Shown here in pieces: positions 1,331 through 18,961 of a stretch of 64,000 nucleotides of DNA (position 1 is the stretch's first letter; each line of letters starts with the position of its first letter). The stretch is taken from positions 1 to 64,000 of the forward strand of contig CAIQRS010000141.1 of NCBI GenBank assembly GCA_903874275.1, in the 5' to 3' direction. A program made the position numbers and the translations under genes. The stretch is from an uncultured Anaeromyxobacter sp. (GTDB lineage: Bacteria > Myxococcota > Myxococcia > Myxococcales > Anaeromyxobacteraceae). The notes under the pieces were generated by a model. It searched no databases, was not told where the DNA came from, and saw only the letters and a list, made by a program, of their open reading frames with translations.

Positions 1331-5548
<4,218 letters not shown>

Positions 5549-6917
5549 CGCCGCGCCAGGAGCACGAACCCCACCGCGCAGCAGAACATGAGCGCGGCGA
5601 AGAAGAGGAAGTAGGCCGCGCCGTGGAAGCGGTTCCACTGGCTCACCACCGCGGCCACGAAGTTCCCCACCGCCGAGGTCAAGAGCCAGAAGCTCATGAT
5701 GGTGCTCTTCATGGTCCTGGGGGCCTGGGTGAAGGCGAACTCGAGCCCGGTCACCGAGATCATCACCTCGGCCATGGTGAGGACCAGGATGGGCAGGACC
5801 TGCCAGAAGACGTGAGGCCTGGCCCCGCCGTCGATGACGGCCTGCAGCCCGGCCATGCCCACGAAGGAGAGGGCGGTGAGGAACATCCCCAGGCTCATCT
5901 TGCCGAGCGGGGTCACCTTCACTCCCAGGCGAACGAGCCCGGGGTAGACCACGCCCTGGAAGAGGGGCACCAGGATGAGCACCAGGAAGGGGTTCACGGC
6001 GTTGAGCTGCGAGGGCTCGAGCCGGAAGCCGGAGAGCCGCATCCCCAGGAACTCCACCGCGCCCACGTCCAGGTTCATCTGCTTGGCCTGGAGGATGAAG
6101 GAGGCTCCCTTCTGGTCGAAGAGCGCCCAGAAGCCGGCCACCATCACGAAGACCCCGGAGATGCGGACCACCGCGCGGGCCCCGTCGACCGCCTCGGCCG
6201 GGTGCACCGCGCGTGCGCCCTCGAGCCAGTCGGAGCCGGCGGGCCGGGAGGCGCGGCGTCGCAGCGCGCTGGCCACCACCTTCACGAAGGAGTCGGGGTT
6301 CGGACCGGTGGGCGCGACGTAGACGTAGCGGCGTCGGCCGGCCACGAAGAAGACCAGCGCCAGCACCATGAGCGCGCCGGGCACGCCGAAGGCCACGGCC
6401 GGGCCGTAGTGCTTGAGCAGGAGCGGGATGAGGATCGAGGCGGTGGCGCTCCCCAGGTTCACCATCCAGTAGAAGAGGCCGTAGACCTTGGCCAGCAGGT
6501 GCTTCTGGTCGGGGGCGAACTGGTCCCCCACGAAGGCCGAGACGCAGGGCTTGATGCCGCCCGCCCCGATGGCGATGAGGGCGCAGCCGGCCAGGAGCCC
6601 GGTCCGGGTCTCCACCGCGGCCACCACCAGGTGGCCGAGCACGTAGCCGAAGGAGAGGAAGAGGATGACCCGGTAGCGCCCCAGGAACCGGTCGGCCAGC
6701 CACCCGCCGACGAGCGGCATGAGGTAGTTGGCCATGACGAAGTAGTGGTAGCTGGCCTTGGAGTCCGCCTGCGACACGAGCAGGTACTGCACCATGTACA
6801 CGACCAGGATGTTGCGCATCCCGTAGAACGAGAAGCGCTCCGCCCCCTCGCTGGCCATGATGTACGGGATCTGCGGCGGGAACTTCTGCCGCGCCGCCGC
6901 GGCACCCACCGCACCGC

Positions 6918-8303
6918 TCACGGACTGCCCTCGGGCGCCGGCCCGGGCGCGACCGCGAACGAGGTGGGCTGGTAGCGCCGCGCCACCCAGGCGAAGGCCA
7001 TGGCGCCGATGAGCATGAGCACGGCGAAGAAGGCGAAGTACCAGACCCCGTGGAAGCGGTTCAGCTTGGCCACCCCGGCGGTGAGGAGGCTCCCCGCCGC
7101 GATGGTCACGTACCAGAGGCTCATGATCACGCTCTTCATCGACGGGGGCGCCTGGGTGTAGGCGAACTCGAGCGCGGTCACCGACACCAGCACCTCGCCG
7201 ATGGAGAGGAACAGGTAGGCGGGCACCTGCCAGGCCACGTGGGGTCGCAGTCCCGCGTCGAGCGCCAGCTGCACCCCCATGATCCACAGGAAGGAGAGCA
7301 CGGTGACGAACATCCCGATCTGCATCTTCTGGAGCGCCAGCGTCTTCACTCCCCGTCGCTGGAGGGCCGGGTAGACCAGGCCGGCGAAGACCGGGATGGT
7401 GGTGAGCACGAAGATGGCGTTCAGCGAGCCCATCTGCGAGGCCTTCACGGTGTAGCCGAGGACCTCCCGGTTCATGCGCTCGGCCTGGAGCACCCAGGAC
7501 GATCCGTACTGGAAGAAGAGGGCCCAGAAGGCGGCGATGGGGGCGAAGACCCCCACGATTCGGAAGACCGCCTTGGCCCCGTCCACCGCCTCGGCGGGGA
7601 ACTGGGATCGGGCCGGGTCGAGCCAGTGCTCGCCGGGGCGCGTCGTCCCGAGCTTCTGGAGGGCCAGCCTCACCACCCGGAAGAAGCCGTTCGGGTTGGG
7701 GCCGGTGGGCGGGACGTTCACGTAGAGCCTGCGACCGCGCCAGAAGATGATGAGCGCGAAGGCCATGAGCACGCCCGGGACCGAGAAGGCCACCCATGGG
7801 CCGAAGCGGGCCAGCAGCTCGGGGATGACCAGCATCGAGGTGAAGGACCCCAGGTTGATCATCCAGTAGTAGAGGTCGTAGACCTTCTCGAGCAGGTGCT
7901 GGCTCCGGGCGTCGAACTGGTCGCCCACGTAGGCCGCGGCCGTGGGCTTGATCCCGCCGGCGCCGATGGCGATGAGCGCGAGCCCGAGCACCAGCCCGGC
8001 CGGCGAGTCCCAGATGGCGATGGCGGCGTGGCCGAAGACGTAGCCCAGGGACAGCCAGAGGATGACCCGGTAGCGCCCCAGGAAGCGGTCGGCGATCCAG
8101 GCCCCCACGAGCGGGGTCAGGTACACGGCGAAGACGAAGAAGTGGTAGTTGGCCTCGGCGTCCGGCTCGCGGACCCCCAGGAACGTCACCATGTAGATGG
8201 TGAGGATCGAGGTCATCCCGTAGAACGAGAAGCGCTCGCACCCCTCGTTCCAGGCCAGGTATCGGATCTGCGGCGGGAAGCGGTCCTTGGGCTGTCGGCT
8301 CAT
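6918..8303 (-). CDS. POT-family proton-dependent oligopeptide transporter (upstream copy)
   Basis: 461 residues from ATG 8303. It is a many-pass membrane protein of the POT/PTR family with the signature E-G-C-E-R-F-S-F-Y-G near residue 20 and the GAGGIKP motif of the first half. An in-frame GTG at 8339 would add 12 residues, but the ATG gives an N-terminus matching the downstream paralogue. It is the first gene of a two-gene transcription unit. The two proteins align along their whole length and probably arose by tandem duplication. Its promoter would lie in the 83 bp between it and the divergent rhodanese gene. Confidence 0.9.
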   Translation of the reverse strand: MSRQPKDRFPPQIRYLAWNEGCERFSFYGMTSILTIYMVTFLGVREPDAEANYHFFVFAVYLTPLVGAWIADRFLGRYRVILWLSLGYVFGHAAIAIWDSPAGLVLGLALIAIGAGGIKPTAAAYVGDQFDARSQHLLEKVYDLYYWMINLGSFTSMLVIPELLARFGPWVAFSVPGVLMAFALIIFWRGRRLYVNVPPTGPNPNGFFRVVRLALQKLGTTRPGEHWLDPARSQFPAEAVDGAKAVFRIVGVFAPIAAFWALFFQYGSSWVLQAERMNREVLGYTVKASQMGSLNAIFVLTTIPVFAGLVYPALQRRGVKTLALQKMQIGMFVTVLSFLWIMGVQLALDAGLRPHVAWQVPAYLFLSIGEVLVSVTALEFAYTQAPPSMKSVIMSLWYVTIAAGSLLTAGVAKLNRFHGVWYFAFFAVLMLIGAMAFAWVARRYQPTSFAVAPGPAPEGSP

Positions 8304-8386
8304 GCGGAGGGCACAGTCTAGCCCGGAAGAACCCGCCACGCAGATTCGCGGGAGGAGGCGCGGGAGGGCGATTATGCATCCCTCAC

Positions 8387-12294: not shown

Positions 12295-12678
12295 GTGTCC
12301 CGCACGACCACCGACGGCATCCAGGTCTCCGTGCAGAGCGAGTTCCGTCCGGACCGGTCCTTCCCGGCCCAGTCGCGCTTCCTCTTCACCTACACGGTCC
12401 GCATCCTGAACGGCGGCGCCTCGGGCGCCCGGCTCCTCTCCCGCCACTGGATCATCACCGACGCCCGTGGCGAGCGGGAGGAGGTGCGGGGCGACGGAGT
12501 GGTCGGCCAGCAGCCGCACCTCGCCCCCGGCCAGTCCTTCCAGTACACGAGCTTCTGCATCCTGCGCACGCCGCTCGGCCAGATGCGCGGGACCTACACC
12601 ATGGTGCGCGAGGACGGGAAGACCTTCGAGGCGGAGATCGCGCCCTTCGCGCTGGCCGTGCCGGCCGCGCTCAACTAG
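12295..12678 (+). CDS. apaG: ApaG domain protein
   Basis: 127 residues from GTG 12295. The ApaG signature is clear: RHWIITD, then VVGQQPHL-x-PG-x-x-F-x-YTS, then TPLG-x-MRGTY. ApaG is a small immunoglobulin-like β-fold, also found in F-box proteins; it binds phosphate compounds and was tied to Co2+ tolerance in enterobacteria, but its reaction is unclear. The start is 45 bp from the divergent Sir2 gene, so they may share a regulatory region. Confidence 0.93.
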   Translation: MSRTTTDGIQVSVQSEFRPDRSFPAQSRFLFTYTVRILNGGASGARLLSRHWIITDARGEREEVRGDGVVGQQPHLAPGQSFQYTSFCILRTPLGQMRGTYTMVREDGKTFEAEIAPFALAVPAALN

Positions 12679-12718
12679 TGCTCCGCCCCAGGCATACTGA
12701 CTGCTGCGAACGCCGATC

Positions 12719-13669
12719 CTACCGCTGCTTGGCGCGCCGCTCGGCCTTGACGAAGGCGTTCGCCAGCTCGTCCTCGGTGACCAGCCTCTTCTTCACCAGG
12801 ATGCGCACCATCGCCGCGGAGAAGCGCGACAGGCGGGCCAGCTCCGGCGAGGTGGCGTCGCCGGCGCCGATGCGCTCCAGGCCGTCGAGGATGGCCTCGA
12901 CCCGGGGTGCGAACTCGGCGTCGCCATCGTCCTCGGGCGTCAGCTCGACGATGAGCTCGGGGGGAGCCTCGGGCAGCGCGGCGCGGACCGACGGCGGGAT
13001 CTCCTCCTCGCCCCGCAGCCCGCGGACCGCGGCGGCAAGGCGCGCCGCCGGGCTGGTGGCGGGGGGCTCGGGGCGGGGCGGCACGGGGGGATGCGCCCCG
13101 GGCGCAGGGCTCCGGGTGAAGTAGTCGTCGAGACCCTGCGTGTACCCCGGGTCGAGCGGCCCGACCAGATCCACCGGCCGGTCGTCCAGCTCGTCGAGCG
13201 CGATGGCCTCCACGCCCTTCTTGTCGCCCAGGTAGAGGCGGCGGATGGCGCGCGCGATCTCGCGGTCGCCGGCGATGGACAGCTTGACGTTGCGGCCGGT
13301 GCGGAAGGCCAGCTCGTCGATGACTCCCATGTTGGTGGGGTCGGCCATGGCGACCCACAGGCTGGCCGTGTCGGCGGCGTAGGGGAGGAGCTGGTTGCGC
13401 TCGGCGAACTCGTGGGGCACGAGGCGCAGCGCCAGCTCGAGCCCGGGGCCGAACTCGATCGACTCGACCGGGGCCCGCGCGAACCCCATCTTGGTGGCCA
13501 GCGTGGAGACGATCTGCTCCTCGCTGGCCATCTTGAGGTCGATGAGCGCCTGGCCGAGCCTGCCACCCCACCTGCGCTGGTGCCCGAGGGCGGCCTGGAG
13601 CTGGGTGCCGTCGATGATCCCGGCTTCGAGCAGGATCTCGCCAAGGCGCTTTCTCTGCGGGTTGACCAC
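12719..13669 (-). CDS. Stand-alone MshE-N (GspE N-terminal type) protein, probable c-di-GMP receptor
   Basis: 316 residues from GTG 13669. Residues 8-31 and 37-60 are two 24-residue copies of the RLGxxLxxxG...LxxQ motif, separated by five residues. This is exactly the tandem layout of MshE-N c-di-GMP binding domains. The rest of a GspE-type N-terminal domain follows to about 150, then a Pro/Ala-rich linker and a helical C-terminus rich in Lys/Arg. No Walker A ATPase domain is present, unlike true GspE/PilB. It lies 68 bp downstream of ExbB-ExbD on the same strand. Ligand binding is inferred from the motif. Confidence 0.8.
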   Translation of the reverse strand: MVNPQRKRLGEILLEAGIIDGTQLQAALGHQRRWGGRLGQALIDLKMASEEQIVSTLATKMGFARAPVESIEFGPGLELALRLVPHEFAERNQLLPYAADTASLWVAMADPTNMGVIDELAFRTGRNVKLSIAGDREIARAIRRLYLGDKKGVEAIALDELDDRPVDLVGPLDPGYTQGLDDYFTRSPAPGAHPPVPPRPEPPATSPAARLAAAVRGLRGEEEIPPSVRAALPEAPPELIVELTPEDDGDAEFAPRVEAILDGLERIGAGDATSPELARLSRFSAAMVRILVKKRLVTEDELANAFVKAERRAKQR

Positions 13670-13737
13670 GTCGCGACTGTACCCGGACGCGTGGCCCGGG
13701 TCGAGCAGCCGCCCCCTCGGGGAGCCCGTCCGACCGA

Positions 13738-14187
13738 TCAGGGTGCGTCGGCGCGGGTGGCGATGGCCAGGCGCGGCAGCCCCTCGCGCCGGGCCATGTC
13801 CATCACGGCCACGACCTTGCCGTGGGCCACCCCCTCGTCGGCCTGCACGAGCACCAGGGTCTCCGGGTTCTCGGCGCGGGCCTTCTCGAGGACCTTCTTC
13901 AGCCCCTCCTGGTCCACCACCTTGCCCTGCACCACCACCCGGCCATCGGAGAGGACGGCGATGGCGAGGTCGTGGACCTCCTTCACCGCGTTGGCCTGGC
14001 CTCCCTTGGGGAGGCTGACCTTGATCCCGCCGTTCTGCCCGCCCGCCTCGGCGATGGCGGTGGTGGTCACCATGAAGATGATGAGGAGGACGAGGAAGAT
14101 GTCGGTGAGCGGCGTGATGTTGATGTCGGCGAAGATGCCCCCGCCGGTCCCCGCGCCGCCATCGTCCTCGGGTGTGCTCATCGACAT
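13738..14187 (-). CDS. ExbD/TolR-family biopolymer transport protein
   Basis: 149 residues. A short cytoplasmic segment is followed by one transmembrane helix at about 25-45 with the family Asp in N-I-T-P-L-T-D-I-F-L-V-L-L-I-I-F, then a periplasmic domain. With the ExbB-like protein it should form the proton-driven motor that energises TonB- or Tol-type envelope processes. ATG 14187 lies one base after the ExbB-like stop. No TonB or TolA is in the window, so ExbD versus TolR assignment is open. Confidence 0.88.
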   Translation of the reverse strand: MSMSTPEDDGGAGTGGGIFADINITPLTDIFLVLLIIFMVTTTAIAEAGGQNGGIKVSLPKGGQANAVKEVHDLAIAVLSDGRVVVQGKVVDQEGLKKVLEKARAENPETLVLVQADEGVAHGKVVAVMDMARREGLPRLAIATRADAP

Positions 14188-14188
14188 G

Positions 14189-14848
14189 TCAGGGCTCCTG
14201 GGCTCCGGCCGGGCCGGCTCGGACTTCCTTCACGATCTCCAGGAACTCCTCGGTGAGGAGCTTGAGCTGGAGCTGCAGCCGCCCGGCCAGGACGTTCAGC
14301 ATGTTGTAGAGGATGACCGCCTCGATGGCCACCGCGATGCCGCCGGCGGTGGTGATGAGGGCCTCGGAGATGCCGGCGGCGACCACGCTGAAGCCGCCCT
14401 GGCCGGTGACGCCCATCTGGTGAAAGGCGCGCATGATCCCGACCACGGTGCCGAAGAGGCCGATGAAGGGGGCGGTGGCCCCGATGGTCCCGAGGATCCA
14501 CAGGCGGGCCCTGAGCTTCTGGTTGGCCTCCTGCCGCTGCCTCTCCACCGCGGCCTCGATCCGGGCGTCGGTGGCCGGCCGCTTGCCGGGAGGCGTGGGC
14601 ACGATCGCGGCCAGGAAGACCTCGGCGGCGGGCGAGGTGGAGCGCTCGGCCTGGGCGCGGGCGTCCTCAGCGTCGCCGCGGAGGAGCGAGCGGGTCACCG
14701 CGTCGGCGAGGCTGCGGGCCCTGTCGGTGAAGCGCCAGAGCGCGAGCACCCGCTCGACGGCGACGGCCACGGCCAGGACCGAGAAGAGCGCGATGATCCA
14801 CATCGCGACACCACCGGTCTTGAGGACCGTGAGGAGTTCCATGTTCAC
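14189..14848 (-). CDS. MotA/TolQ/ExbB-family proton channel protein
   Basis: 219 residues, three hydrophobic segments (about 12-32, 110-135, 155-180). The family pattern G-L-F-G-T-V-x-G-I-M-x-A-F is followed by G-I-S-E-A-L-x-T-T-A-x-G-I-x-V-A. It is the stator ring partner of the adjacent ExbD-like protein. GTG 14848 has an AAAGG ribosome binding site upstream; ATG 14842, two codons in, is the alternative start. A 103-bp gap separates it from the lipoprotein gene upstream, leaving room for an internal promoter. Confidence 0.9.
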   Translation of the reverse strand: MNMELLTVLKTGGVAMWIIALFSVLAVAVAVERVLALWRFTDRARSLADAVTRSLLRGDAEDARAQAERSTSPAAEVFLAAIVPTPPGKRPATDARIEAAVERQRQEANQKLRARLWILGTIGATAPFIGLFGTVVGIMRAFHQMGVTGQGGFSVVAAGISEALITTAGGIAVAIEAVILYNMLNVLAGRLQLQLKLLTEEFLEIVKEVRAGPAGAQEP

Positions 14849-14951
14849 GTCTGCGCGCCTTTCGGGGATCCGGGGAGGGGGAAAGCTAGCCGATTTCCTG
14901 GGGGATTCAAGGCGAACCGCCCGGGGAGCCCCGGTGTTCCCGGGACCCGGG

Positions 14952-15785
14952 TCAGCGCTGGCCCGGGGGTGCGGGACGGATCGGCAACTCGAGCGGGGGC
15001 GGGGGCGCTCCCGGCTCGAGGTCGATCACCCGGACGCCGCGCGGGGGATCGAGCACGAAGAGGGCATCGTCGGGCGCGCCGTTCACCTCGAGATCGTCCC
15101 TCCAGCGCAGCCCGATCTCCGCGCCGCCGCCGCGCAGCTCCACCTCGGTGGGGAAGCGGCGGCCGCCCGGGTGGCGGAAGACGGAGAAGGCGGCCTTCCA
15201 GGGAATCCCGCCCCGGGCACCGGGCAGGTTGCTCGCGGTGACGATGGAGGCGCCGTCGCCCACGGCCAGGACCTGCCGCCCGCCCGCACCGGCGATCTCG
15301 AGCAACACCACGCCGTCCCCCGGCTCGGCCGCCACCGCCCGCCCGTCGAGGAGGGGCACGCTCCCGCAGACCACGCGGGCCAGCTCGCGGGCGCCGAGCG
15401 GCACCGGGAGGAGCCGCGACAGGTTCTCGGGCGTGTCCTCGCCGCGGTGCAGCGTCCCGGCCCGCGCGTCGAGCAGGGCGAAGCGGCCGCCGCCGGCGAC
15501 CAGCACCGCCGCCGGGTTCCCGAAGAAGTCGAAGACCTCCACCCGGAGCCGGCCGGAGGTCTCGGCGGCGACCCAGGCCTCGAGCGAGCCGGAGAGGTCG
15601 GGCGAGGAGACCGAGAGACGCGCCGAGCCGCGGCAGGAGGTGACGCGCTCCTGAGCCGCCCGGACCTGCGCGAGGAGGGGGGCGGGATCGCGGGAGAGGT
15701 CGGGGGGCGGCGCCCGGACGCAGCCCGAGAGCAGCGCCGCGGCGGCGGCGGCAACCCCCGCCGCCAGGAGGGACCTCCTGGTCAC
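14952..15785 (-). CDS. LolB-like outer-membrane lipoprotein (DUF4292 type)
   Basis: 277 residues. The signal peptide ends in a lipobox LLSGC, with Cys22 as the lipidation site; the next residue is Val, so outer-membrane sorting is possible. The remainder is β-rich with the LolA/LolB-like pattern (S-A-R-L-S-V-S-S-P, then R-V-E-V-F-D-F-F-G-N-P). LolB-type proteins insert lipoproteins into the outer membrane, but many DUF4292 relatives have no proven role. The GTG start overlaps the stop of the PLP enzyme gene (GTGA). Confidence 0.7.
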   Translation of the reverse strand: MTRRSLLAAGVAAAAAALLSGCVRAPPPDLSRDPAPLLAQVRAAQERVTSCRGSARLSVSSPDLSGSLEAWVAAETSGRLRVEVFDFFGNPAAVLVAGGGRFALLDARAGTLHRGEDTPENLSRLLPVPLGARELARVVCGSVPLLDGRAVAAEPGDGVVLLEIAGAGGRQVLAVGDGASIVTASNLPGARGGIPWKAAFSVFRHPGGRRFPTEVELRGGGAEIGLRWRDDLEVNGAPDDALFVLDPPRGVRVIDLEPGAPPPPLELPIRPAPPGQR

Positions 15786-16957
15786 GCCCGCTCCAGCGCC
15801 TGGAGCAGGTCGGCCAACAGGTCGTCCGGGTCCTCCAGGCCGACCGACACCCGGAGCGTGCCCCTCCCGATCCGCTGGGCGAGGAGCTCGGCGTCGGTGG
15901 CGTTGCGGTGGGAGGAGATGACGGGGATGGAGGCCAGGCTCTCCACGCCCCCCAGCGAGCTGGCCCGGGCCACCAGCCGGAGTGCGTCGTGCACCCGGGC
16001 CACGGCCTCGTACCCTCCACGGACCGTGAAGGAGAGGACCCCGCCCCCGCCGCGCAGGAGCCGCCGGGCCACCGCGTGGTCGGGGTGGGACTCCAGGAAC
16101 GGGTAGTCCACCCGTTCAACCCGGGGGTGCCCGGAGAGCGCCCGGGCCAGGCGGAGCGCGGTGTCGTTCTGGCGCAGGACCCGGATCTCCAGGGTCTTCA
16201 GGCCGCGCAGCAGGTCGTAAGCCGCCGCCGCGTCCAGGTTCCCGCCGGTGGAGCGGCGCATGGCCAGGACCCCGGCCAGGAGCGCGCGCGACCCGGCCAC
16301 CACCCCGCCCAGGTGGTCGGAGTGGCCGTTGAGGAACTTGGTGGCGCTGTGGACCACCAGATCCACCCCGAGTGGAATGGCCCGGAGGTTCACGGGCGAG
16401 GCGAAGGTGGCGTCGAGGACGCTGCGGATCCCCCGCGCCCGGCAGGCCGCCGCCACGGCCGGGACGTCGGCGACGCGCAGCGTGGGGTTGGTGGGGCTCT
16501 CGAAGACCAGCGCCCGGGCGTTCCCCGGCGCGGCCGCCACCGCCGCGGCCAGCCCGTCGAAGGGGACGACCCGGATCTCCACGCCGAAGCGCTCGAGAAC
16601 GTCCCGCGCCAGCCGGGTGGTCTGCCCGTAGATGGTGTCGCAGAGGAGCAGCGCGTCCCCGGCCCGCAGCGTGGAGAGGAGCGCCGCGGTGAGCGCGGCC
16701 ATCCCGGAGGCGAAGCAGGCCGCCGCCTCGGCCCCCTCGAGGGCGGCGATCTTCCGCTCGGCCGCGACCACGGTCGGGTTCTCCAGGCGCGCGTAGAGCC
16801 AGCGCCCCTCCGGCGCGTCGAGGTAGGCGGCGGCGTCGGCGGCGCTGTCGAAGCGGTAGGTGGTGGCCTGGTAGACGGGGGTGGTGGTGGAAGGGACGGA
16901 GAGGGTCTCGCCCTCGCCGGCGTGGACCGCCAGCGTCCCCAGCTTCGGCTCGCTCAT
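15782..16957 (-). CDS. Cys/Met-metabolism PLP-dependent enzyme (cystathionine gamma-synthase / methionine gamma-lyase type)
   Basis: 391 residues, normal length for the family. The PLP lysine sits in SATKFLNGHSDHLGG, with YARLENPT and the cofactor-phosphate loop FASGMAA upstream. The family makes or breaks C-S bonds in cystathionine, homoserine esters or methionine, and sequence alone does not decide which. The start ATG 16957 overlaps the preceding gene's stop (ATGA), so a longer open frame upstream is rejected. Neighbours (membrane protein, lipoprotein) do not clarify the pathway. Confidence 0.88.
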   Translation of the reverse strand: MSEPKLGTLAVHAGEGETLSVPSTTTPVYQATTYRFDSAADAAAYLDAPEGRWLYARLENPTVVAAERKIAALEGAEAAACFASGMAALTAALLSTLRAGDALLLCDTIYGQTTRLARDVLERFGVEIRVVPFDGLAAAVAAAPGNARALVFESPTNPTLRVADVPAVAAACRARGIRSVLDATFASPVNLRAIPLGVDLVVHSATKFLNGHSDHLGGVVAGSRALLAGVLAMRRSTGGNLDAAAAYDLLRGLKTLEIRVLRQNDTALRLARALSGHPRVERVDYPFLESHPDHAVARRLLRGGGGVLSFTVRGGYEAVARVHDALRLVARASSLGGVESLASIPVISSHRNATDAELLAQRIGRGTLRVSVGLEDPDDLLADLLQALERA

Positions 16958-17328
16958 GGCGCCAGGATCCCGCCCACCACCGCCCCCACGAGGAGCGGCA
17001 CCACGTTCGCCACCACCAGCACTCCGGCCCCGAACCCGGCGATGGCTCCCAGGACCGGCATCCCGGTGAGCGCGGTCGCCATGAAGAACATCACCACCGC
17101 CACCACCAGCGCCGGCAACAGGACCGCGGCGATGGCGGTGCCCACGCTCCCGGCCTTCCGCCCTCCGACCAGGCCGGCGATGAACATCCCCAGCACCGGC
17201 AGCCAGAAGAGGAGCAGCGAGAGGACGAGCATCCACACCATCGCCGTCGCGAGCCCCCCCTTCTCCGCCCCGGGCGCCCGGTTCGCTGCGGACTGGTTCT
17301 TCTCGCCGTCCCGGATCTGGTCTGCCAT
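16954..17328 (-). CDS. Small integral membrane protein, function unknown
   Basis: 124 residues. A hydrophilic head of about 25 residues (charged, Asn/Gln-rich) is followed by three or four hydrophobic segments rich in Gly, Ala and Val. I do not recognise a named family. ATG 17328 has GGGAGCG upstream as ribosome binding site. The stop overlaps the PLP enzyme start (ATGA), so the two are translationally coupled. Confidence 0.7.
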   Translation of the reverse strand: MADQIRDGEKNQSAANRAPGAEKGGLATAMVWMLVLSLLLFWLPVLGMFIAGLVGGRKAGSVGTAIAAVLLPALVVAVVMFFMATALTGMPVLGAIAGFGAGVLVVANVVPLLVGAVVGGILAP

Positions 17329-17348: not shown

Positions 17349-18170
17349 TCAGAATAGCCGGGCGGCGCGCGCCCGGAGTTCCCTGGCCTGGCGGCGCGCC
17401 ACCTCGTTCTCCGGCGCCCAGCGCGGATCGGCGTCCCCTGCCCCCTCCACCTCGGCGAGCATCCGGTCGAAGGCGGCCCTGTCCTGGAGCAGGACGAGGA
17501 GCGAGCCGGCCTCGGCGACCGGCGTGAGGAGGCAGCCGGGACCGAGCACGCGGGCCTGCTCGAGGTGGCGTCGCGAGCGGGCCACGCCGCCGCCCACCGC
17601 CGCCGGCAGCGCAGCGGCCCAGGCGCCCAGCGCGCGGTGCGGCCCCCCGCAGTCCACCGCCCCGTCGAGCGAGGCGGCGCGCTCCATCGCGGCGAGCGCC
17701 GGGTCCTTCACGGCGAGCAGCGCGGGGAGCCCCTTCTCGCGCGCCGAGGACCAGGTGGCGAGCGCCAGCCAGTAGAGGGGCTCGGCCCCCTCCGGCCCGA
17801 CGCGGGAGGGGGCGCCGACGAGGTCCCCCTTCTCCACGGCCTCTCCCCATGCGGGCGAGAGGTGGCGCAGGGCCCGCTCGGCCGCGCGCGAGGAGGCGAC
17901 CCAGGCGGCGCGGGCCGACGCGGGGTCCGCGAGGGCGCGGAAGGCCTCGGCGCGGGCCAGGCGGAGCTCGACGGCCGGATCATCGGGCCGGTGGGGCTCG
18001 GCGGCGGCGGTCCACTCGGCGATGGCCTCGGCGAGGCGCGCCGGGTCGCCGCGCTCCGCGAACGCCAGGTCTCCCCGTGCGATCCGGGCCGCCCGGGTGG
18101 TGGCGCCGTGGGGCTGCGGGGGCGTGGGCGCAGCGGTCGCGCCGAGCAGGGCGAGCGCGAGGAGCAGCAT
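17349..18170 (-). CDS. Exported helical-repeat protein, possibly TRAP-transporter T-component (TatT) like
   Basis: 273 residues. A signal peptide of about 15 residues (LLLALALLGATAA) lacks a lipobox cysteine. Helical repeats rich in Ala, Arg and Trp follow. The pattern W-x-A-A-A-E then A-L-Y-W-L-A-L-A-T-W and the region around P-A-A-V-G-G-G-V-A-R-S-R resemble TatT/TRAP T-component proteins, periplasmic TPR-like trimers. The family call is tentative. ATG 18170 overlaps the upstream MaoC gene's TGA. Confidence 0.55.
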   Translation of the reverse strand: MLLLALALLGATAAPTPPQPHGATTRAARIARGDLAFAERGDPARLAEAIAEWTAAAEPHRPDDPAVELRLARAEAFRALADPASARAAWVASSRAAERALRHLSPAWGEAVEKGDLVGAPSRVGPEGAEPLYWLALATWSSAREKGLPALLAVKDPALAAMERAASLDGAVDCGGPHRALGAWAAALPAAVGGGVARSRRHLEQARVLGPGCLLTPVAEAGSLLVLLQDRAAFDRMLAEVEGAGDADPRWAPENEVARRQARELRARAARLF

Positions 18171-18961
18171 CAGCGCCGCTTGCCGGCCTTCGTCTTCGGG
18201 GCGGCCTTCTTCGGAACCGACTTCGGCGCCGGAGCCTTCTTGGCCGGAGCCTTCTTGACGGGCGCCTTCGGCGCGGGCTTCGCGACGGGCTTCGGCTCCG
18301 GCCGGGGCGGGACCTTCGCCTGCACCGGCACCGGGGGCGCGCCCTTCTGCGGCACGGCCGCGGGCTTCGCCGGCTGGACCTTCGCCGGGGCGGCCGCCGG
18401 ACGCGTTCCCACCGCCGGTCGCGCCGGCGCGGTGCTGCGGGAGAGCTTGGCGAGCCGCTCCTCCTCCTCGGCCGGCGTCACCACGAGGGGCGGCTGCCCG
18501 CCGCGCTGCCGGGTCTCGTCGTCGCCGCTGTAGAAGAGCTGGGCCGTCACCGCGCCCCGCACCACCAGCTCCCCGCGCTGGTTCTCGCCCCATACCTCGA
18601 TGTCCACCGCGTAGCGCCCCCCGGCCTCGAAGCGCCGGTCGGCCACGCGGCCGCGCACCGTCACCACGTCGCCGGGCCAGACGATCTTCACGAACCGTGC
18701 ACCGAAGCGCCGGACCCGGGCCCCGCGCAGCCAGTCGGTCACCAGCTCGCCCAGGAAGCCCATGGCGAGCATCCCCGGGACGAGGACGCTGGGGAAGCCG
18801 GCGTTCCGCGCGAAGGGCTCGTCCACGTGGAGCGGGCCGTAGTCCCCGGTGGCCCCGCAGAAGCGGGCGACCTGGGAACGATCCACCGGAGGCTTCACCA
18901 GCGGCGGAAGCTCGTCGCCGACCTTGACCGCCTCGAAGTAGAGCTGCCGTGCCAGGAGCAC
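18170..18961 (-). CDS. MaoC-like dehydratase with a long basic Lys/Ala/Pro-rich C-terminal tail
   Basis: 263 residues. Residues about 8-150 form a hot-dog fold MaoC domain with the catalytic pattern D-Y-G-P-L-H-V-D-E followed by N-A-G-F and V-P-G-M-L. Such domains hydrate or dehydrate enoyl/3-hydroxyacyl thioesters. From about 165 to the end the protein becomes a low-complexity tail of Lys, Ala and Pro, like histone H1 or AlgP tails. The GTG start at 18961 is the first in the open frame. It lies 13 bp after a second hot-dog dehydratase gene; the pair resembles the HadA/HadB split of mycobacterial hydroxyacyl-ACP dehydratase. Confidence 0.8.
   Translation of the reverse strand: MLLARQLYFEAVKVGDELPPLVKPPVDRSQVARFCGATGDYGPLHVDEPFARNAGFPSVLVPGMLAMGFLGELVTDWLRGARVRRFGARFVKIVWPGDVVTVRGRVADRRFEAGGRYAVDIEVWGENQRGELVVRGAVTAQLFYSGDDETRQRGGQPPLVVTPAEEEERLAKLSRSTAPARPAVGTRPAAAPAKVQPAKPAAVPQKGAPPVPVQAKVPPRPEPKPVAKPAPKAPVKKAPAKKAPAPKSVPKKAAPKTKAGKRR

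Follow-up and report, generated by a model that had tools for sequence, protein, structure and literature searches.

A stand-alone MshEN protein encoded with LolB-like and ExbB-ExbD genes in Anaeromyxobacter is a candidate c-di-GMP-type envelope adaptor

Behind an ExbB-ExbD gene pair of an uncultured Anaeromyxobacter sp., we found a gene for an MshEN domain protein that is free of the secretion ATPase and that carries one canonical and one degenerate c-di-GMP motif. We propose, with a probability of roughly 0.4, that this protein is a c-di-GMP-type, cytoplasmic MshEN-only adaptor of an old Myxococcota envelope module around a LolB-like lipoprotein. Since the gene stands in a conserved envelope cluster with ExbB-ExbD and the LolB-like lipoprotein, c-di-GMP may act there on the cell envelope. 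The window, i.e., the whole stretch of DNA analyzed, is 64,000 nucleotides long, and the features discussed are collected in Table 1.

Table 1. Features of the mshEN region in the window
Feature	Position	Strand	Description
C-terminal helices	12722..12907	-	Residues 255-316; similar to a third GSPII half-motif, degenerate and lacking RLG
Stand-alone MshEN protein	12719..13669	-	316 aa; GTG start at 13669
Motif 2	13490..13561	-	Residues 37-60; degenerate, with changes at positions 10, 12, 17 and 24; RLGQALIDLKMASEEQIVSTLATK
Motif 1	13577..13648	-	Residues 8-31; canonical; RLGEILLEAGIIDGTQLQAALGHQ
ExbD/TolR-like protein	13738..14187	-	149 aa; Pfam ExbD, 95.8 bits, E 2.7e-27
ExbB/TolQ-like protein	14189..14848	-	219 aa; Pfam MotA_ExbB, 101.2 bits, E 4.4e-29
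LolB-like lipoprotein	14952..15785	-	277 aa; invariant lipobox Cys22 (alignment of 31 homologues)

An MshEN domain without a secretion ATPase

The window protein matched Pfam MshEN (PF05157) with 70.6 bits (E 1.2e-19; cut-off, 23.1) and, over residues 8-59, the NCBIfam model NF053729 for an MshE-related c-di-GMP motif with 69.3 bits (E 1.8e-19; cut-off, 38). A chance motif was ruled out by these profile E-values of ~1e-19. In phmmer comparisons, the protein was related to the solved MshE (5htl; E 9.5e-12), PilF (6f8l; E 2.6e-27) and PilB (3jc8; E 7.8e-17). Profile searches with Pfam and NCBIfam found no P-loop secretion ATPase domain in it, and the PilB and GspE models covered just their own N-terminal part, far under cut-off. 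With the MshEN profiles above cut-off and the ATPase families unmatched, the earlier note was right to describe an MshEN-type domain lacking the GspE/PilB ATPase. The N-terminal domains of PilB, PilF and GspE are similar in sequence to the window protein, but there they are joined to the ATPase. The neighbors scanned with Pfam included no genes for pili or type II secretion.

AlphaFold predicted an MshEN fold at residues ~5-148, where block pLDDT was mostly 80-90. Next came a linker modeled with low confidence (149-247) and helices at 255-315 (pLDDT ~80), i.e., the MshEN domain is followed by a disordered linker and C-terminal helices. The top Foldseek match of the MshEN model was MshE with c-di-GMP (5htl; E 3.1e-10). 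MshE of Vibrio cholerae and the window protein are alike in fold, 24-5-24 layout and canonical motif 1. Unlike MshE, the window protein has no ATPase domain, lacks Gly10 and Gln24 in motif 2, and bears a long linker and C-terminal helices. A traffic ATPase cut by a frameshift was also ruled out, as full-length orthologues share the linker and the C-terminal helices and stop there.

A scan of the genome contigs returned two full-length relatives; at the remaining 22 loci, just the N-terminal domain or part of it was matched, mostly in ORFs of ~500-670 residues. In a tree of MshEN N-terminal domains, the 17 family orthologues formed one supported group. In our reading of the sequences, they resemble the second copy of the tandem MshEN pair found in other Myxococcota (see below), the tree not being firm on the copy of origin.

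One canonical and one degenerate motif

According to the part of PMC5013675 available to us, a receptor carries two full motifs, each fitting the consensus RLGxx(LVI)(LVI)xxG(LVI)(LVI)xxxxLxxxLxxQ, 5 residues apart. The earlier note had claimed a perfect motif pair. Its layout holds: two 24-residue units (residues 8-31 and 37-60) are separated by a 5-residue spacer, and the GTG start places residues 8-60 exactly at 13490..13648. Its perfection does not. Motif 1 fits the consensus in full. In motif 2, K replaces both the G of position 10 and the Q of position 24, I replaces the L of position 17, and position 12 is A in place of L/V/I. The claimed repeat of Gly10 and Gln24 thus fails, and the window protein, owing to motif 2, falls outside the two-full-motif definition of an MshEN c-di-GMP receptor.

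The degenerate motif 2 was common to all 17 orthologues, and most of its changes were conserved in the family. In motif 1, L2, G3, G10, L17, L21 and Q24 were present in 17/17 sequences and R1 in 16, with K in the other. In motif 2, G3 and L21 were kept in all 17, as was K at position 10; position 1 was R in 12 and K in 5, position 2 was L in 12 and I in 5, position 17 was I in 13 and V in 4, and position 24 was K in 15, R in one and T in one. Among 14 full-length orthologues, motif 1 was the most conserved region, with a mean pairwise identity of 0.83, compared with 0.65 for motif 2, 0.58 for the rest of MshEN, 0.39 for the C-terminal helices and 0.36 for the linker.

For MshE, the available part of PMC5013675 reports that binding was abolished when the third Gly was replaced, that replacement of any single conserved hydrophobic residue caused a more than tenfold loss, and that changes of Arg9, Asp12 or Gln32 cost at most ~fivefold. 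The same part notes that the c-di-GMP screen also caught MshEN proteins with less conserved motifs and that perfect motif conservation may be unnecessary. PilF GSPII-A is described in the available part of PMC12002112 as a nonbinder of c-di-GMP in which motif 2 depended decisively on its Arg (R1) and Gly (G3); L-to-I differences at two sites had just a ~2.4-fold effect, and both Gln residues (position 24) were restored, alongside other changes, in every binding construct. The window protein retains the residues rated most important in these parts of the two papers, namely, R1, L2, G3 and L21 in both motifs and Q24 in motif 1. Binding of c-di-GMP by the window protein is plausible on these grounds. 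The residues that mattered most are kept, but motif 2 has K24, and any such binding would probably be less tight than that of MshE. A rival reading of c-di-GMP binding turns on the motif 2 departures: K10 and K24 are conserved in the family at 17/17 and 15/17, respectively, and there are precedents in the available parts of both papers. Given the retention of the key residues listed above and the conservation of motif 1, we assign this reading a low probability. The window genome contained 11 GGDEF matches, and c-di-GMP is thus probably made by the host.

A C-terminal element resembling a third half-motif

The C-terminal 48 residues were compared with the two motifs using hhalign (113/120 rows, no pattern filter). 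The probability was 80.4 for motif 1 and 80.1 for motif 2, versus at most 0.3 for three control regions; in the 14 family rows alone, in a comparison choosing rows by pattern, the signal was weaker (9 and 41). The C-terminal helices of the window protein and of related stand-alone MshEN proteins thus resemble a third pair of GSPII helices from which RLG is missing.

The neighboring ExbB-ExbD pair and LolB-like gene

Upstream of mshEN, on the same strand, lie exbD (68-bp gap), exbB and the LolB-like gene, followed farther upstream, still on the same strand, by genes for a Cys/Met-metabolism enzyme, a TRAP-transporter T-component (TAtT) protein and a MaoC-domain protein. A scan that covers one promoter type found no promoter- or terminator-like site in 12500..17300. 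The ExbB/ExbD pair that the earlier note placed before the MshEN gene is indeed directly upstream, and both proteins were above the Pfam cut-off. Together with the retained membrane Asp of ExbD, this assigns them to the ExbB/TolQ and ExbD/TolR families. The PLTD motif containing this Asp was found in the window ExbD and in 69/69 ExbD matches of the fetched loci. With respect to known TolQR/ExbBD motors, the pair was closest to the TolQ and TolR models but remained below the curated TolQ, TolR, ExbB and ExbD cut-offs (NCBIfam tolQ, 118.4 bits against 221; NCBIfam tolR, 85.5 bits against 127.3). Among ten neighboring proteins scanned with Pfam, none was TonB, TolA, TolB or Pal. At another locus, L119 (G000:C211), one ExbB gene and two ExbD genes stand in a row, an arrangement which we take to resemble the AglRQS gliding motor.

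The window LolB-like protein itself matched nothing in Pfam or NCBIfam and did not reach the curated LolB cut-off. Its LolB-like designation comes from other members of the alignment of 31 homologues, of which 12 matched DUF4292, 8 LolB1_Flavo, 2 Pfam LolB and 1 TIGR00548; the member from locus L161, scored alone against LolB1_Flavo, gave 34.4 bits (cut-off, 50). The available part of PMC11885536 describes LolB1 in Flavobacterium. An AlphaFold model built on an alignment of 2 sequences had a mean pLDDT of 34, and a PDB search with the LolB-like profile gave no match.

Conserved linkage within the family

Family f1 comprises Anaeromyxobacteraceae-type genomes (a name that we infer). In 14/17 f1 genomes with a LolB-like locus, mshEN and exbD shared a strand, with gaps of 32-251 bp between their profile matches. 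When the window and genome G031 are added, mshEN stands behind exbD in 16 of the 19 family genomes with the stretch assembled. The gene was cleanly absent from G017, G018 and G021, which kept LolB-ExbB-ExbD. In G026, contigs end between the genes, and a profile search of G020, G025, G032 and G033 found neither LolB-like nor ExbB matches. Loci L009 and L010, apparently the same records as the G028 and G026 contigs, were counted once. A chance neighborhood was rejected, the window genome having 8 MshEN places in 5.07 Mb. The conserved gene order in the family may be inherited synteny. Loci L123, L124 and L125 are relatives without mshEN between exbD and apaG and represent natural losses.

Linkage across the order and the phylum

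The 77 genomes sampled across the order were chosen from those with a LolB-like match (130/145), with a bias, beyond f1 and f2, toward one or a few representatives of each genus. ExbB was found within 3 kb of the LolB-like gene in 64/77 genomes and MshEN within 6 kb in 59/77; no MshEN gene was found nearby in 18/77, where it must be kept in mind that some of the 77 stretches stop at contig ends, so that a gene missing there is not proven absent. Both partners accompanied the same LolB-like gene at these distances in 49/77 genomes. Co-occurrence with ExbBD in myxobacteria, a check that the earlier note had suggested, is thus conserved, both here and in the 16/19 family genomes.

The earlier note had further suggested that the protein could make a proton-driven envelope motor respond to c-di-GMP. 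In its direct form, c-di-GMP bound to the MshEN protein would itself turn the ExbBD proton motor on or off. The same-strand adjacency of exbD and mshEN across 68 bp with no terminator-like site in the stretch scanned, the retained membrane Asp of ExbD and the GGDEF proteins of the host agree with such a switch. We consider it improbable, however, since the two partners part company in both directions. In f5, f7 and 2/4 f8 genomes, as in the three f1 genomes mentioned above, the LolB-like gene and ExbBD occur together with no MshEN in the stretch. Conversely, in f2 (9/9 genomes; loci L079, L080, L086, L087, L091, L094, L095, L099 and L100), the LolB-like gene is followed by two MshEN genes at 50-86 bp, and exbB-exbD is not in the stretch; MshEN near the LolB-like gene without ExbBD recurs in other classes. 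Moreover, direct exbD-mshEN adjacency was confined to f1, with 0/60 among the genomes sampled elsewhere in the order. In several f2 genomes, the second MshEN ORF is long (~640-910 residues).

Outside the order, 20 loci were taken from ~40 genomes with a match. MshEN lay within ~6 kb of the LolB-like gene in 11/20 loci and was found in none of the other 9; in 7 of the 11, it was co-directional and downstream of the LolB-like gene, with a peptide transporter between them in 2/7. ExbBD was in the stretch in 0/20 of these loci. Since MshEN and LolB are associated beyond the order without ExbBD, the LolB-like gene, and not ExbBD, is the deep partner. In the loci sampled, ExbBD accompanied the LolB-like gene nowhere outside the order, and f1 was the one family in which it touched MshEN. 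The tandem stand-alone MshEN proteins of other Myxococcota share with the window protein the architecture, the C-terminal half-motif and the LolB-like neighbor. There, MshEN is often a pair in or beside a peptide ABC-transporter operon, whereas in the window family it is a single copy behind exbD.

In f6 (33/40), exbD-exbB is divergent from the LolB-like gene, and MshEN, mostly as a pair, comes after the latter, often amid a peptide ABC transporter. Another reading would have the MshEN protein serve the peptide ABC transporter (historically) or some unlinked target, its position behind ExbBD being a leftover of transporter gene loss. It would fit the order solute-binding protein, two permeases, MshEN, MshEN and OppD-type match at L145 (the second permease was confirmed by Pfam at this locus only) and the order solute-binding protein, permease, MshEN and ATPase at L098 (family f9), as well as the presence of Opp genes in 34/40 f6 stretches and 0/17 f1 stretches. 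The sole SBP_bac_5 gene of the window genome is on another contig, C270, which has no MshEN match. We nonetheless regard this reading as somewhat unlikely, because mshEN is kept behind exbD in most of the family, co-directionally and with short gaps, and because MshEN and LolB are also associated in f2, f14 and f17, where the stretch showed no Opp gene.

Peptide (SBP_bac_5/BPD_transp/oligo_HPY) ABC operons hold or adjoin stand-alone, often tandem MshEN genes in much of the order (L145:6507-12070, L098:7029-12736 and L161:6828-10737). A c-di-GMP link to peptide uptake is possible at these operons.

A proposed adaptor of an envelope module

In the adaptor that we favor, a flexible linker connects the c-di-GMP-receptor-type domain to a helical element like a third, ligand-free GSPII half-motif. 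Its ancestral neighborhood would have consisted of the LolB-like outer-membrane lipoprotein, an MshEN pair and, in at least one class, a peptide transporter. ExbBD would have joined this neighborhood within the order, and loss of the transporter and of one MshEN gene in f1 would have left the same-strand LolB-like-exbB-exbD-mshEN series. One guanine would be held tightly in motif 1 and the other more loosely in motif 2, so that c-di-GMP would be reported with modest affinity. The C-terminal helices might relay this state to an inner-membrane partner, ExbBD or another envelope component; the partner is probably among the products of the cluster. The role of the adaptor would be to tune, not to power, an envelope process such as the handling of lipoproteins or lipids.

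A broader proposal would be that Myxococcota possess an uncharacterized envelope machine that responds to c-di-GMP through MshEN adaptors, originally two, which exert control over a LolB-like lipoprotein pathway. In Anaeromyxobacteraceae, this control would pass through a dedicated ExbBD proton motor, the second messenger gating proton-driven outer-membrane work. We offer this as a speculation that is quite unlikely to hold in full.

Literature context and further observations

A search of mostly open-access papers found none treating MshEN together with ExbD, LolB or Anaeromyxobacter, and no paper on DUF4292 or on LolB with ExbD and Myxococcus. The available parts of PMC8844925 and PMC5013675 give 17 MshEN proteins for M. 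xanthus and up to 22 for myxobacteria, respectively. Many myxobacterial MshEN proteins are without known output, and a conserved cluster joining MshEN to a LolB-like lipoprotein and ExbBD offers a testable output for such orphans. If the adaptor reading is true, c-di-GMP would reach envelope energy transduction or lipoprotein handling, beyond pili, flagella and polysaccharides.

Two further observations concern transport genes in the window. The gene for the TAtT protein (17349..18593, minus strand) is conserved near the LolB-like gene in f1 and at loci L133, L214 and L215. A POT-family peptide transporter is encoded at 6918..8339 on the minus strand, and an ORF overlapping it (5518..8379) suggests a second, adjacent copy.
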